From Verrucomicrobiota bacterium (GTDB lineage: Bacteria; Verrucomicrobiota; Verrucomicrobiia; Opitutales; UBA953), in NCBI GenBank assembly GCA_030831965.1, contig JAURJZ010000014.1:1-35712 (forward strand): a DNA stretch of 35,712 nt, given 5' to 3'. Below the pieces are notes generated by a model. That model did no database searches and was not told the DNA's origin. It saw only the letters and a program-made list of their open reading frames with translations. The position numbers and the translations under genes were made by a program. This document shows positions 23,157-30,380 of the stretch, piece after piece; within the stretch, counting starts at the first letter, position 1, and each line of letters starts with the position of its first letter.

Positions 23157-24296
23157 ATGAAACAACTCGAACAGTTCCTGAAGGAGAAGTGGTTCCTGGT
23201 CGCGGCGGACGCCCTGGTTGTCGTCGGGATCCTCAGCATCGGGCTGGACCCCAAGGACAGCTTCCAGGCGTTCCTCGCCGTGGCCGGCATCCTCGCCGCC
23301 TCCGCCATCGTCGTGGTCCCCGTCCTCCGCGAGGAGGGCACGCGCAAGCAGCGCCAGCAGGAGGAGCGCCGCCTCCGCGCCGCCCTCGCCCAGGAGCTCG
23401 ACCTGCTCCGCGGCGAGATCCGCGCCTCCGGCGAGGTCGCCGCCCGCCGCGCGACCGACATCGAGATGGGCGCCCGCAAGGCCGGCGAGGCCGCCGCCGA
23501 GGCCGTCGCCCGCAAGGCCTCCTCCGAGATCGCCGCCCTGCGCGCCGAGCTCGCCGCTTCCGCCGGCGCCAACGAGGGCTTCGACGAGCTCCGTGCCCAG
23601 ATCCAATCCGTGGCCGACGCCGCCCGCGGCGCCACCGCCGACGCCGAGACCGCCCTTGAGCAGGCGGAGGCGGCGGGCAAGGACACCGACGCCCTGCGCG
23701 GCGCCTTCGGCGACGCCCGCGCCAAGGCCGACGCCGCCCTCAAGGCGCACCAGGCCGAGATCGCCGCCCTGCGCGCCGAGCTCGCCCAGCTTCGCGCCCA
23801 GACCGACGCTTCCCGTCCAAACCCCTCTGAGGCCTCCGCTCCCGCCGCCAGCGTCGCCCCCCGCGACGCCGAGCCGGAGGCCTTGGTTGCGGCGGAGGAG
23901 GAGCCGAAGGAGGACGAGGAGCGGCGGCAGGAGGCCGCCGAGGAGGAGGAGCCCCGGGCCGCCGAACCCGCGGCCGAGACCCAGCCTGCGCCCAAGGCCG
24001 CTCCCCGGACCGTCATGGCGACGGAGGACGACGCCACCGGCACCTGCCTCATCGTCAACCTGATGATCGGCATCGGCAACAAGCCCTTCGTCCGCGGCAG
24101 CGGCCCCGGGCTGTCCGAGGAGGCCGGCGAGCCCATGCAGTTCCTCGCCATCGGACGCTGGCTGTGGCGCGCGCCCTCCGCCGACGCCCCCGTCACCGTT
24201 CAGGTCTGGAAGAACGACCGCTCGCCCCTCGGCGAGCCCGTGCGCATCCCCGCCGGGGAGACGCGCGAGCTCGACGAGGATTTCTTCGCCGGCTGA
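23157..24296 (+). CDS. Uncharacterised membrane-anchored coiled-coil protein
   Basis: 379 residues, family not recognised. Two hydrophobic segments near the N-terminus (about 13-28 and 37-56) are followed by a long Ala/Glu/Arg-rich coiled coil (about 60-225) and an acidic Pro/Ala/Glu linker (about 225-290). A compact C-terminal domain of about 85 residues then follows, with CLIVNLMIGIGNKPFVRG, QFLAIGRWLWRAP and VTVQVWKNDRSPLGEPV. The C-terminal part looks like a small beta domain. A 32-base perfect direct repeat (23525-23556 and 23755-23786) encodes EIAALRAELA twice in the coiled coil. Its stop is 2 bases before the next gene. Structural or scaffolding role is only a guess. Confidence 0.82.
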   Translation: MKQLEQFLKEKWFLVAADALVVVGILSIGLDPKDSFQAFLAVAGILAASAIVVVPVLREEGTRKQRQQEERRLRAALAQELDLLRGEIRASGEVAARRATDIEMGARKAGEAAAEAVARKASSEIAALRAELAASAGANEGFDELRAQIQSVADAARGATADAETALEQAEAAGKDTDALRGAFGDARAKADAALKAHQAEIAALRAELAQLRAQTDASRPNPSEASAPAASVAPRDAEPEALVAAEEEPKEDEERRQEAAEEEEPRAAEPAAETQPAPKAAPRTVMATEDDATGTCLIVNLMIGIGNKPFVRGSGPGLSEEAGEPMQFLAIGRWLWRAPSADAPVTVQVWKNDRSPLGEPVRIPAGETRELDEDFFAG

Positions 24297-24298
24297 GG

Positions 24299-25399
24299 AT
24301 GTCCCTCCGGGTCCGCCTCGCCGCGCTCGGCTGCCTCGCCGCCCTGTCGGCACAGGCCGCACCGCCCGACCCCGCCGCCCCGTCGCCCTCGGCGGTCTCG
24401 CGCGTCACCGTGCGCGAGACCGATCTCGCGACCGTCGTCTCGCCCAGCGTCGCCGAGATGTCCTACGTCGCCGCCCACGCCGACGCCCTCGAGGTCCACC
24501 TGCGCGCGGTCGCCCGCGTCGGCGCGCCCCCGGGGCCCAAGCCCCGCATCGAGGCGGCCGATGTGCCCGGCCTGCCCGACGTCGCCTGTTCGGTTTCCGG
24601 CGGCTACGTCCTGGTCGCCGTGCGCCTGGGTTCGCCGGCCGACGCGCCGCTGCGCGCCGGCGAGGCGGTCGCCCGCGCCTGGCTCGCCGCCGCCTCGGTC
24701 GCCTCGGGTCTTCCCTCCGCCCAGGCCTCGCCCTGGGCGTCCGCCGCCCTCGCCGCCGAGACGGTCGCCCAGCTTCGCCCGGCCATGGTCGACCTTTGGT
24801 ACCGCCGCGCCGCGGCCTCGCCGCCCGCCGCCCTCGCCGAGCTGGTGGCCGGGCGCGGCCCTCCCCACGAGGCCCTTCTCTTCGGACGCGCCCTGCGCCG
24901 CGCCCTCGGCCATGAGCGCTTCGCCCCGGCCCTCGCCGCGGCCGGCCGCGGCGAGTCGCCCGAGCCGCTCCTGCGCGGCATCGACGCCCAGCCCGAGGTC
25001 TGGTGGCCCGCCGCCCGCCAGGCCCTGCTCGACGCGCGTCCCGCGCCCTCGCTCGGCATGGCGGAGTCGCTCGCCGAGCTCGACGCCCTCACCCGCTTCG
25101 TCCACGACCCGGTCGGGCAGGGCGACGTCGTCCTGACCGGCCCCCAGGCGGCCCGCCTCCGCCGCCTCCCCGCGCTGAGGGAGGCGATGGCCGACCGGCT
25201 CGCCCGCCTCCGGCTCGCCATCCTCCGCCAGAATCCCGTCGCGCACAACGCCTGGCGCTCGCTCGGGAACTGGCTCGAGTCCTACCCCACGGCCACCGAG
25301 GAGCAGCTCGACGGGCTCTGGGCCGCCTACCTCGCCGACCGCGCCGCCGCCGGCCGCCTCGCCGAGGAGGTCGAGCACGCCTTCGGCGGAGCGCGCTGA
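24299..25399 (+). CDS. Uncharacterised secreted Ala-rich protein
   Basis: 366 residues, family not recognised. Residues 1-20 (MSLRVRLAALGCLAALSAQA) are a signal peptide with AxA cleavage. The mature part is mostly helical and Ala/Arg/Leu-rich with no clear catalytic motif; WYRRAAASPPAALAELVAGRGP, LLRGIDAQPEVWWPAARQ and NAWRSLGNWLESYP are its most distinctive stretches. It starts 2 bases after the stop of the coiled-coil gene, so the two are translationally coupled and probably work together in the envelope. The correct frame is supported by the signal peptide. Confidence 0.78.
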   Translation: MSLRVRLAALGCLAALSAQAAPPDPAAPSPSAVSRVTVRETDLATVVSPSVAEMSYVAAHADALEVHLRAVARVGAPPGPKPRIEAADVPGLPDVACSVSGGYVLVAVRLGSPADAPLRAGEAVARAWLAAASVASGLPSAQASPWASAALAAETVAQLRPAMVDLWYRRAAASPPAALAELVAGRGPPHEALLFGRALRRALGHERFAPALAAAGRGESPEPLLRGIDAQPEVWWPAARQALLDARPAPSLGMAESLAELDALTRFVHDPVGQGDVVLTGPQAARLRRLPALREAMADRLARLRLAILRQNPVAHNAWRSLGNWLESYPTATEEQLDGLWAAYLADRAAAGRLAEEVEHAFGGAR

Positions 25400-25822: not shown

Positions 25823-28636
25823 GTGGAGCTCAAAGACACCCTCAACCTGCCGGTGACCGACTTCCCCATGAAGGCCGGCCTCGCCGAGCGCGAGCCCAAG
25901 CGCCTCGCCCACTGGGAGCGCACCGGCCTCTACGCCCGCATCCAGGCCCGCAACGCCGGCCGCCCCGCCTTCGTCCTCCACGACGGCCCTCCCTTCACCA
26001 ACGGCGACGTCCACATCGGCACGGCCCTCAACAAGCTGCTCAAGGACGCCATCCTGCGCTACAAGTCGATGCGCGGCTTCCGCACCCCCTACGTGCCCGG
26101 CTGGGACTGCCACGGCCTGCCCATCGAGCACAAGGTCATGAAGGAGCTCCAGGCCCAGGGCCGCTCCCTCGACGCCCTCGGCGTGCGCAAGGCCTGCGCC
26201 GAGTTCTCCGCCGCCTTCATCGAGAGGCAGCGCGGCCAGTTCCGCCGTCTCGGCGTCCTCGCCGATTGGAAATCCGAGTACCGCACGATGGACCCGGCCT
26301 ACGAGGCCGAGATCCTCCGCGCCTTCGCCGCCTTCGTCGAGCAGGGCCTCGTCTACCGCTCGAAGAAGCCCGTCTACTGGTCCATCCCCTGCCAGACCGC
26401 CCTCGCCGAGGCCGAGATCGAGTACAGGGAGAAGCGCTCGCCTTCCGTGTGGGTCGCCTTCCCCGTCCCCGCCGACGCCGCCCGCGCCAAGGGCCTGGAC
26501 CCCGCGCACCCGCTCTCGGTCGTCATCTGGACGACCACGCCCTGGACCCTGCCCGCCAACCTCGCCGTCGCCGTCCATCCCGAACTCGAGTACGTCGAGG
26601 TCCGCCACGCCGGCCGCTCGCTCCTCGTCGCCGCCGCCCTGCGCGACGCGTTTGTCGCCGCCTGCAAGCTGGAGGGCGCGACCGACGGCTTCCGCGCCAG
26701 GGGCGCCGCGCTCGAGGGCCTCGCCGCCCGCCATCCTTTCATCGACCGCGCCTCGCCCCTCGTCCTCGCCGACTACGTGACCACCGACGCCGGCACCGGC
26801 TGCGTCCACACCGCGCCCGGCCACGGCGTCGAGGACCACCAGACCGGCCTCCGTTACGGGCTCGAGGCCTACTGCCCGGTCCAGGACGACGGCACCTACG
26901 CCGCCGACGGCCGCGTCCCCGCCCCGCTTGTCGGCGTCTCCGTGCTCGAGACCGACGGCAAGTGTCCGGCCAACGGCGCCGTCCTCGGCCTGCTCGAGGC
27001 CGCCGGCGCCCTCGTTCACCGCGCCCCGCTCGTCCACAGCTACCCCCATTGCTGGCGCTCCAAGGCCCCTGTCATCTTCCGCGCCCTCGACCAGTGGTTC
27101 ATCGGCCTCGACCGCGGCGGCCTTCGCGCCCGCGCCCTCGACGCGGTCGGCAAGGTCCAATGGATCCCCTCCTGGGGCGAGAACCGCATCCGCGCCGCCC
27201 TCCAGGGCCGGCCCGACTGGTGCGTCTCCCGCCAGCGCGCCTGGGGCGTGCCCATCCCCGCCTTCGTCTCCGCGTCCACCGGCGAGTCCCACCTCGACGC
27301 CGCCGTCACCCGCCACGTCGCCGACCGCGTCGCCGAGAAGGGCGCCGACTGGTGGTGGTCCGCCCCGGTCGGGGAGATCCTCGCCGGCGCCCCCGTCCCC
27401 GCGGCCTGGCCGCGCGACCTGCGCAAGGGCGGCGACACGCTCGACGTCTGGATCGACTCCGGCACCAGCCACCTCGCCGTCTGCGCGCGCCATCCCGACC
27501 TGCACTGGCCGGCCGACCTCTACCTCGAGGGCTCCGACCAGCACCGCGGCTGGTTCCAGTCCTCGCTCTGGACCGCCGTCGCCACCAAGGGCGCCGCGCC
27601 CTACCGCGCCGTCCTCACCCACGGCTTCGTCGTCAACGAGAGGCGCCAGAAGATCTCCAAGTCCGACGGCAAGCCCCAGACCGCCGACGGGTATGTCTCC
27701 AAGTACGGGGCCGACATCGTCCGCCTCTGGGTCGCCTCCGAGAACTACCAGAACGACATCCCCCTCTCGGACGCCATCTTCGACACCCTCTCCAACCAGT
27801 ACCGCGCCGTCCGCAACACCCTCCGCTGGCAGCTCGGCTCCCTCGCCGACTTCGACCCCGCGCGCGACGCCCTCCCGCTCGCCTCCCTCCGCCCCCTCGA
27901 GCGCTGGCTCCTCGCCGAGACCGCCCGCCTCATCCGCGAGGTGACCGAGGCCTGCGAGGCCAACGAGTTCCACCGCGCCACCGCCGCCCTCGCCACCTTC
28001 ACCACCGCCACCCTCTCCGCCGCCTACACCAGCATCGTCAAGGACACCCTCTACACGCTGGCACCCGCCGACCCCGCGCGCCGCTCCGTCCAGACCGCCC
28101 TGCACCTGGTCTCGCGCGCCTATCTCCGCCTCCTCGCGCCGTTCCTGCCCTTCACCGCCGACGAGGCCTGGTCGCACGCCGTCGCCGGCGCCGAGTACAC
28201 CGACGCCGACTCCGTCCATCTCCAGCCCTGGCCCGAGGTCCCCGCCGGCTGGGAGGACGCCGGCGCCCACCGCGTCGTCGACGCCCTCCTGCGCCTCGGC
28301 GTCGCCCACGCCAACGGCCCCCTCGAGCGGCTCCGCCAGGACAAGCTCATCGGCCAGAACCTCGACGCCGCCCTCGAGGTCACCGGCGACCCCGCCGACC
28401 CCGACTTCGCCCTCCTCGCCCGCCACGCCGACCTCCTGCCCGACCTCTGGATCGTCTCCGCCGTCCGGGTCGCGCCGCTCGCCGGCGCCGCCCTCGCCGT
28501 CACCGCGGCCAAGGCCCCGGGCGTCCGCTGCCCCCGCTCCTGGCGCTGGGTCCCCGAGCTCGTCGCCGCCGGCAAGTTCGGCCCCGTCTCGCCGCGCTGC
28601 CGCGAGGCGCTCCTTGCCAAGTACGGCGACCTTTGA
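25823..28636 (+). CDS. ileS: Isoleucine--tRNA ligase
   Basis: A class I synthetase of 937 residues, the same as the bacterial type. HDGPPFTNGDVHIGTALNK carries the HIGH-equivalent (here HIGT). The editing domain is present (TTTPWTLPANLAVAVHPE), then EGSDQHRGWFQSS and RQKISKSDGKP as the KMSKS loop. At the C-terminus the zinc knuckle expected as CxxC...CxxC is CPRSW...SPRC, with two of the four cysteines replaced by serine. The GTG start at 25823 has no Shine-Dalgarno. TTGACA at 25726-25731 may be a -35 box. It opens a run of genes with dksA-like and lspA. Confidence 0.97.
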   Translation: MELKDTLNLPVTDFPMKAGLAEREPKRLAHWERTGLYARIQARNAGRPAFVLHDGPPFTNGDVHIGTALNKLLKDAILRYKSMRGFRTPYVPGWDCHGLPIEHKVMKELQAQGRSLDALGVRKACAEFSAAFIERQRGQFRRLGVLADWKSEYRTMDPAYEAEILRAFAAFVEQGLVYRSKKPVYWSIPCQTALAEAEIEYREKRSPSVWVAFPVPADAARAKGLDPAHPLSVVIWTTTPWTLPANLAVAVHPELEYVEVRHAGRSLLVAAALRDAFVAACKLEGATDGFRARGAALEGLAARHPFIDRASPLVLADYVTTDAGTGCVHTAPGHGVEDHQTGLRYGLEAYCPVQDDGTYAADGRVPAPLVGVSVLETDGKCPANGAVLGLLEAAGALVHRAPLVHSYPHCWRSKAPVIFRALDQWFIGLDRGGLRARALDAVGKVQWIPSWGENRIRAALQGRPDWCVSRQRAWGVPIPAFVSASTGESHLDAAVTRHVADRVAEKGADWWWSAPVGEILAGAPVPAAWPRDLRKGGDTLDVWIDSGTSHLAVCARHPDLHWPADLYLEGSDQHRGWFQSSLWTAVATKGAAPYRAVLTHGFVVNERRQKISKSDGKPQTADGYVSKYGADIVRLWVASENYQNDIPLSDAIFDTLSNQYRAVRNTLRWQLGSLADFDPARDALPLASLRPLERWLLAETARLIREVTEACEANEFHRATAALATFTTATLSAAYTSIVKDTLYTLAPADPARRSVQTALHLVSRAYLRLLAPFLPFTADEAWSHAVAGAEYTDADSVHLQPWPEVPAGWEDAGAHRVVDALLRLGVAHANGPLERLRQDKLIGQNLDAALEVTGDPADPDFALLARHADLLPDLWIVSAVRVAPLAGAALAVTAAKAPGVRCPRSWRWVPELVAAGKFGPVSPRCREALLAKYGDL

Positions 28637-28680: not shown

Positions 28681-29787
28681 ATGGCCAAGCCCAAGCCCAA
28701 GAAGCCCTCCGCGAAGAAGCCCGCCGCCAAGGCCAAGCCCGCCGCGAAGAAGCCCGCGCCCAGGAAGCCCGCGCCCAAGGCTCCGGCCAAGAAGCCCGCC
28801 CCGGCCAAGGCCGCCGCCGCCAAGGCCAAGCCCGTCCTCGCCAAGGCACCCGCCAAGCCGGCTCCTGCCGGCAAGCCCGCCGGCAAGGTTGTTCCGCCCG
28901 CTCCCGCGAAGGGCGGAAAGGGTTCCAAGCAGGCCCCCGCTCCCGTGGCCAAGGGTGGCAAGCCTGCCAAGGGCGCCAAGGCCGAGCCCGCGCTCTCGCA
29001 TGACGAGCAGCGCAAGCTCCTCGACTCGCATCGCCAGGGCCACCACCAGGTCTCGCCCGTCGAGGCCCCGCCGGCCAAGCCCAAGCTCCAGGTCTTCACG
29101 GTCGACGACGTCCGCAACTACCTCAAGGGCCGCGGCAAGTCCAAGCTCAACCTCTGGGTGCCCGACGAGGAGCGCAAGGCGCGCGAGCGCGTCGCCGGCT
29201 CCGCCAAGGGCGACCGCAGCAAGCCCCACGCCGTCGCCGCCGCCTCGGTCGCCAGCCTCCTTGGCTTCAATCCCTTCAAGAAGAGCGCCGCCGCCGAGGA
29301 AAACCGCCGCATTCCCGACAAGTGGAGCCGCTACCACAAGCTCCTCCTCGCCAACCGCGCCAAGCTCGAGGACGTGCTCGCCCGCCACACCGACGAGGCC
29401 CTGAAGAAGTCCGGCAAGGACGACGCGGGCGACCTCTCCGGCTACTCCCAGCACATGGCCGACGCCGGCACCGACACCGCCGACCGCGACTTCGCCCTCA
29501 ACCTCATCTCGAGCGAGCAGGCCCAGATCAAGGAGATCGACGACGCCATCGAGCGCATGCGCCAGGGATCCTACGGCATCTGCGAGATCACCGGCCGCCC
29601 CATCCCCGCCTCGCGCCTCGTCTCCGTCCCCCACACCCGCTACTCCATCGAGGGCCAGAAGGAGCTCGAGCGCCAGCGCCGCGCCCTGCGCCGCCGCGGC
29701 GGCAACCCCCTGGGCCCCGACGGCGACGAGGTCGGCTTCGGCACCGGCGGCGGCGGCGGGCCCGACGGCGACGGCGACGACGCCTGA
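28681..29787 (+). CDS. TraR/DksA-type protein with histone-H1-like Lys/Ala/Pro N-terminal extension
   Basis: 368 residues. The first 115 or so are low-complexity KKPAAKAKPAAKKP sequence resembling bacterial histone-H1-like tails. A middle region follows (LQVFTVDDVRNYLKGRG, LLGFNPFKK). The C-terminal 150 residues are a DksA-type coiled coil with DTADRDFAL and the zinc-finger region YGICEITGRPIPASR...TRYSIEGQKELE (298-330). Of the four zinc cysteines only C301 remains; the others are T304, S322 and G325. The tail after it is Gly/Asp-rich. It lies 44 bases after ileS and 5 before lspA. RNA polymerase or DNA binding is inferred. Confidence 0.9.
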   Translation: MAKPKPKKPSAKKPAAKAKPAAKKPAPRKPAPKAPAKKPAPAKAAAAKAKPVLAKAPAKPAPAGKPAGKVVPPAPAKGGKGSKQAPAPVAKGGKPAKGAKAEPALSHDEQRKLLDSHRQGHHQVSPVEAPPAKPKLQVFTVDDVRNYLKGRGKSKLNLWVPDEERKARERVAGSAKGDRSKPHAVAAASVASLLGFNPFKKSAAAEENRRIPDKWSRYHKLLLANRAKLEDVLARHTDEALKKSGKDDAGDLSGYSQHMADAGTDTADRDFALNLISSEQAQIKEIDDAIERMRQGSYGICEITGRPIPASRLVSVPHTRYSIEGQKELERQRRALRRRGGNPLGPDGDEVGFGTGGGGGPDGDGDDA

Positions 29788-29792
29788 GCCCG

Positions 29793-30380
29793 ATGGACAA
29801 CCCCGCGCCGCGCACCGCCACCTTCGGGTGGGTCGCCCTCGCGGCGCTCCTCGCCGACCAGCTCACCAAGTGGCTGGTCGTCGCCTCGATTCCCTACCCG
29901 ACCTACCACCCCGGCGCCGGCGCCGGCGAGCCTGTCCGCGTCCTCGGCGACGCCGTCTGGCTCGTCCACGTCGGCAACAAGGGCGCGGCCTGGGGCCTCG
30001 GCGCCGACCACCCCGGCACCAAGCTCTTCCTCGTCGGCCTCGCCCTCGCCGTCCTCGCCCTTGTCTGGTTCAAGCGCCGCGAGTTCCTCCACGAGCTCGC
30101 CGGCGGCCAGCTCGCCTTCGGCCTCTTCGTCGGCGGCGCCCTCGGCAACGTCGTCGACCGGGTCGCGCGCGACCATGTGGTGGACTTCGTCGACATCCAC
30201 CTGCCCTTCGAGCTCCTCGGCAGCCGCCGCTGGCCCGCCTTCAACGTGGCCGACGCCTGCATCTGCGTCGGCGTCGCCCTCTACTTCGCCTTCCTCTGGC
30301 GCCACGACCGCGCCCTCCGACGGCGCATCGCCGAGCAGTCCGGCCGCGGCACCGCCGACCGCGGCCCCGCCGACTCGTGA
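29793..30380 (+). CDS. lspA: Lipoprotein signal peptidase (signal peptidase II)
   Basis: An inner-membrane aspartyl protease that removes lipoprotein signal peptides. The 195 residues have four helices. The catalytic aspartates are D122 in GGALGNVVDRV and D154 in FNVADACI; GNKGAAWG matches the conserved NxGAA block. It starts 5 bases after the DksA-like stop, and its TGA overlaps the GTG of the flavin reductase gene (GTGA). Clustering with ileS is a common bacterial arrangement. Confidence 0.96.
   Translation: MDNPAPRTATFGWVALAALLADQLTKWLVVASIPYPTYHPGAGAGEPVRVLGDAVWLVHVGNKGAAWGLGADHPGTKLFLVGLALAVLALVWFKRREFLHELAGGQLAFGLFVGGALGNVVDRVARDHVVDFVDIHLPFELLGSRRWPAFNVADACICVGVALYFAFLWRHDRALRRRIAEQSGRGTADRGPADS

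Follow-up and report, generated by a model that had tools for sequence, protein, structure and literature searches.

DksA is known mainly as the partner of ppGpp. A gene in a 35,712-nucleotide stretch of DNA from a Verrucomicrobiota bacterium of the order Opitutales (assembly GCA_030831965.1, contig JAURJZ010000014.1; the whole stretch is called the window here) raises the question of what a DksA relative does when its zinc site and its ppGpp contacts are gone and a histone-like tail has been joined to it. A whole order keeps a near-universal protein of this kind, and that order belongs to a phylum in which RSH domains are rare. Two questions become testable in such bacteria: what role DksA has without ppGpp, and whether chromosome packing is coupled to transcription through one bacterial protein.

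The layout of the gene is given in Table 1. As the sequence-only reading had proposed, it is embedded between ileS and lspA, both of which were identified by their Pfam domains (PF00133 and PF01252). Two open reading frames upstream of ileS (positions 23157–24293 and 24296–25396) gave no Pfam match, and the first has a high content of A, E and R. Among 133 loci of the order, many of which are cut by contig ends, lspA lies 3′ on the same strand in 120 and ileS lies 5′ on the same strand in 115. For loci from other classes of the phylum, the corresponding figures are 28/32 for lspA and 2/32 for ileS. In other orders of the same class the count for lspA in this position is 4 of 48; it comes from short loci and a single LspA query, by which a divergent or distant lspA could be missed among the other 44. 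The ileS-dksA-lspA triple is mainly a trait of the order, and the lspA neighbour is found also in most of the other-class loci sampled.

Table 1. Features of the DksA-like gene and its neighbours, with positions in the window
Feature	Positions	Strand	Basis
DksA/TraR-type protein, 368 aa	28681..29787	+	ORF translation
K/A/P-rich histone-H1-like tail, residues 1-105, net charge +28	28681..28995	+	
FTVDDV, conserved linker motif, residues 139-144	29095..29112	+	
AAS-xx-LLG motif, residues 187-195, ahead of coiled coil	29239..29265	+	
First long helix of DksA-like coiled coil, residues 213-244	29317..29412	+	AlphaFold2
Second long helix of coiled coil, residues 264-295	29470..29565	+	AlphaFold2
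PF01258 finger, residues 296-331, ligand positions C301, T304, S322, G325	29566..29673	+	
Glycine-rich acidic C-terminal tail, residues 341-368, net -7	29701..29784	+	
ileS, upstream neighbour	25823..28636	+	PF00133, 1.7e-120
lspA, downstream neighbour	29793..30380	+	PF01252, 2.3e-32

A homologue is present in 52 of the 57 genomes of the order, the family profile is matched by 128 of 132 genomes of the class, and a PF01258 gene occurs in 274 of 288 genomes of the phylum. Among the best 80 of 388 relatives in named genomes, most are labelled Opitutae, Opitutales, Puniceicoccales, Opitutaceae or Verrucomicrobia; a few carry the labels Akkermansia or Polynucleobacter, which are probably wrong. 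In some relatives the gene is accompanied by another PF01258 gene that lacks the tail and has four cysteines in L230, L232 and L233 and one in L228, L229 and L231. The order loci were assembled from two overlapping sets (L001–L053 and L054–L133), and once duplicates are removed the 133 loci leave 106 unique domains; further order loci (L214–L227) were inspected by eye and stand outside all counts. The A1 profile search supplied 40 of the 48 other-order loci, at one to three per family. The remaining eight (L166–L173) and all 32 other-class loci were taken from the listed best PF01258 matches, which biases them towards intact fingers.

Membership of the DksA/TraR family rests on sequence models and on a predicted fold. 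The PF01258 finger was matched at 31.7 bits (gathering cut-off 24.9), and the best PDB sequence match was Chlamydia DksA (6ptg, 1.2e-19). Among NCBIfam models the best was the YteA family TIGR02890, at 87.2 bits over residues 214–332, which misses the curated cut-off of 134.4; two DksA equivalogs were missed as well, at 45 versus 105 bits (NF033459) and 42.6 versus 115.5 bits (TIGR02420). The AlphaFold2 model, run with 40 rows, shows a pair of long helices together with a compact finger region. VIA-align placed it nearest to DksA2 of Pseudomonas aeruginosa (4ijj; Z 12.0, rmsd 2.2, 115 aligned) and E. coli DksA (1tjl; Z 11.7), followed by polymerase-bound DksA (Z 10.8) and Chlamydia DksA (6ptg_B; Z 9.4, 84 aligned). 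Unrelated coiled coils scored 9.4 and below, and pairs of long helices reach moderate Z against many unrelated chains; Foldseek put the same DksA proteins at the top of its ranking. At the level of the model, the two highest scores support the DksA fold of coiled coil plus globular domain. A common fold does not establish function.

The finger itself is dismantled. Three of the four zinc cysteines were indeed found to be T, S and G, leaving one of the four ligands, and since the four-cysteine feature of DksA/TraR was looked for and is missing, the protein is a DksA variant and not a canonical member. Outside the order the state of the finger is mixed: the 48 loci from other orders of the class have four cysteines in 3 cases, three in 5, two in 27 and one in 13, while the 32 other-class loci, a sample favouring intact fingers, have four in 25, three in 1, two in 4 and one in 2. 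Across the phylum the count runs from four down to one, a pattern that would fit stepwise loss on a weakly resolved tree (110 rows after thinning of near-copies, four too-short rows left out, 128 columns and many open forks). Within the order one ligand cysteine is kept in 105 of the 106 unique loci and none in the other. Such retention of C301 might suggest that the residue acts as a redox or metal switch, yet a lone cysteine cannot make a four-ligand zinc site, and one relative (L053) has D in its place; a switch of this kind seems very improbable. In the shorter of the models the finger region reaches a pLDDT of 93–94 without zinc ligands, and it would be held by ordinary packing, as in the zinc-free DksA2.

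The contacts with ppGpp have gone the same way. One paper assigns K98, R129 and K139 of E. coli DksA to site 2 and describes the first two as contacting ppGpp (PMC7676912). Aligned to 1tjl, these positions read E285, V316 and Q326, and the replacements are shared by the order, 131/133 loci having E where K98 would be and 128/133 having V in place of R129. The K98-position lysine is missing also from at least 23 of 28 four-cysteine loci, so the loss of site 2 is not tied to that of the finger. As regards the nucleotide, a review states that Planctomycetes, Verrucomicrobia and Chlamydiae lack RSH genes (PMC8118318). For the synthetase domain PF04607 the present survey found 2 positive genomes among the 57 of the order and 15 among the 288 of the phylum, against 11 among 14 controls; a few genomes of the order (G018, G032, G142 and G182) have a RelA/SpoT domain. 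No RelA/SpoT domain was detected in the genome of the window (PF04607 in 0 of 1). Because the site-2 residues are replaced as well, the ppGpp question looks moot here, as far as sequence comparison can tell.

With zinc ligands and ppGpp residues gone, it could be supposed that the role at RNA polymerase has been lost altogether and that the DksA fold now serves as the scaffold of a nucleoid protein. Chlamydia DksA lends some weight to this, as it fails to complement the growth defect of E. coli dksA in the account given by a review (PMC10995303), from which it follows that proteins of this type may no longer share the function of E. coli DksA. Against the supposition, the region of the coiled-coil tip is still acidic, with D261 in 131/133 order loci and D or E at 265 in 132/133 (R269 is kept too, in 131/133), and nearly every genome of the class has the gene. 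A pure scaffold is therefore judged unlikely.

The basic N-terminal tail is the second departure from DksA. The earlier description of a KKPAAKAKP sequence fused to the coiled coil was right about the fusion and overstated the length, which is about 105 residues instead of about 115; residues 1–105 comprise 27% K, 31% A and 23% P. If a tail is counted wherever 40 consecutive residues ahead of the coiled coil contain at least 20% lysine, it is present in 100/106 unique order loci, 38/48 other-order loci and 24/32 other-class loci, and the concern that relatives might lack it is answered by the fact that most are tailed. Before removal of duplicates the tail was missing in 10 of the 133 order loci, seven of them in frames running off a contig end. 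Three members with the same finger and frames that are not truncated (L036, L040 and L050) are tail-less, and the tail is thus not indispensable everywhere. Between tail and coiled coil, the FTVDDV linker motif recurs in 119/133 order loci (2.9 in shuffles). A search of the genome of the window with the tail alone gave no other strong match, in a kind of search that low-complexity queries make weak, and among the open-licence papers listed by literature searches, no title or abstract opening reports a tailed DksA in this order.

Tail length differs widely between relatives; for instance, unusually long tails of 300 to >500 residues, as counted in the open frame from putative starts, are seen in L023, L027, L029 and L044. 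This variation, together with a correlation between A+P content and GC content (r = 0.65 over 213 loci), is what would be expected of neutral low-complexity sequence produced by high GC. Lysine content, on the other hand, is independent of GC over the same 213 loci (r = 0.02), and in each of the four GC bins spanning 0.30 to 0.75 the net charge per 40 residues averages between 10 and 12. Neutral origin is accordingly hardly credible, and positive charge is the property that is kept. Given this behaviour of lysine and of A+P, and the presence of a homologue in nearly all genomes of the order, the observation is more than chance; the finding is real and conserved.

What the charge may be for is suggested by two relatives in which the tail has been exchanged. 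L047 has nine RGRP AT-hook cores where the tail stands (shuffle mean 0.03, maximum 1), and L052 has two AT-hook motifs counted in its N-terminal part instead of a K/A/P tail; a clear AT-hook relative was found only once. The suggestion of a DNA-coating tail is backed indirectly by a charge that is kept whatever the GC content, by the substitution of AT-hooks in one relative and, by analogy, by the CarD precedent treated below. A polycation alone is non-selective, however, and the tail might bind a non-chromosomal target such as RNA, ribosomes or polyphosphate. The AT-hooks at the tail site in both relatives point to DNA, and AT-hooks are also able to bind RNA. There is a precedent for such a target in AlgP of Pseudomonas, a histone-H1-like protein that is reported to be linked to polyphosphate granules (PMC9239181). 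Binding of this sort is doubtful, if more plausible than a pure scaffold.

It might be expected that tail and finger loss co-vary, and this proved not to be so: 22 of 28 unique four-cysteine loci are tailed, as are 109 of 121 with one cysteine or none, and across the phylum the tail is often borne by intact fingers. On the tree, the independent pairs on starred branches numbered 3 and gave no signal. Within the class it is instead the AAS-xx-LLG motif that, judging from the sampled loci, tracks the one-cysteine finger. The strict pattern occurs in 107 of the 133 order loci. A relaxed form, A(A/T)(S/A)xx(L/I)LG, set post hoc after inspection of the 26 strict-pattern misses, occurs in all 106 unique order loci (shuffle expectation 0.9 of 133), and in other orders of the class the motif is found in 13/13 one-cysteine loci and 0/35 others. 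The motif occurs in none of the 32 other-class loci, six of which have lost the fourth cysteine, and the link between motif and finger is therefore confined to the class. Shared ancestry may explain it, since a single clade of the order and CTTA loci is not rejected: the two stand apart in a free quick tree, and the tree constrained to one clade is 20.2 log units better (p-AU 0.84). Docking of an AAS-xx-LLG helix on the finger in the place of zinc was considered and set aside, the motif block having a pLDDT of 45–57 in both models.

The other end of the protein is acidic. At least three net acidic charges occur in the last 20 residues of 132/133 order loci, 47/48 other-order loci and 6/32 other-class loci. 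A basic and an acidic arm on one protein are reminiscent, by analogy, of HMGA-type proteins.

The reading preferred here, at a probability of roughly 0.55, is that of a zinc- and ppGpp-independent DksA-type secondary-channel factor that is tethered to DNA by a disordered basic tail. Computation shows the fold (as a prediction), the loss of the ligands, a genome with no synthetase detected and the conservation of charge; binding to polymerase and DNA, as well as regulation, are inferred. The coiled coil would enter the secondary channel of RNA polymerase. The disordered N-terminal tail would bind DNA with no marked preference for particular sequences and so enrich the factor at promoters and on the nucleoid, in a way similar to what the HMGA/H1-like domain does for Myxococcus CarD. 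The acidic C-terminal tail may temper DNA binding. On this view a DksA-type regulator would take the state of the nucleoid, instead of ppGpp, as one of its inputs. A bolder version is offered only tentatively: the order would have built a CarD-like device independently on a DksA scaffold, with the tail as an interchangeable DNA-architectural domain (H1-like or AT-hook), nucleoid state rather than ppGpp tuning the secondary-channel factor, and AAS-xx-LLG as a new docking element gained as the last zinc ligands were lost.

Several known systems share parts of this architecture. Like AlgP, the protein carries basic low-complexity, histone-H1-like sequence. Hc1 and Hc2 are also bacterial histone-H1-like proteins, and to our knowledge none of these is fused to a DksA domain. 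The YteA model has 159 positions and no counterpart of the tail. DksA of Chlamydia trachomatis (6ptg) resembles the present protein in that its finger, where aligned, reads C, S, T, S with a single cysteine, and in belonging to a phylum described as RSH-less in the review cited; unlike it, the deposited chain has 132 residues, without a long K/A/P tail. DksA2, the best structural match, has a zinc-free DksA fold comparable to the predicted one. It is a two-cysteine, zinc-starvation paralogue beside a four-cysteine DksA1 (PMC9213440), whereas the genome of the window, judged 98% complete, yielded a single PF01258 gene and no such second copy, with one ligand cysteine plus a tail. Finally, CarD of Myxococcus xanthus joins a basic disordered domain to an RNA-polymerase-binding module, an arrangement that the K/A/P tail and the DksA-like module may parallel; its HMGA-like RGRP-repeat domain, echoed by the nine AT-hooks of L047, can be replaced by histone H1 with function retained (PMC8156234, PMC4374960). 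The CarD module is PF02559 with the tail C-terminal; the protein described here has PF01258 as the only domain found, a DksA-like module with the tail N-terminal.
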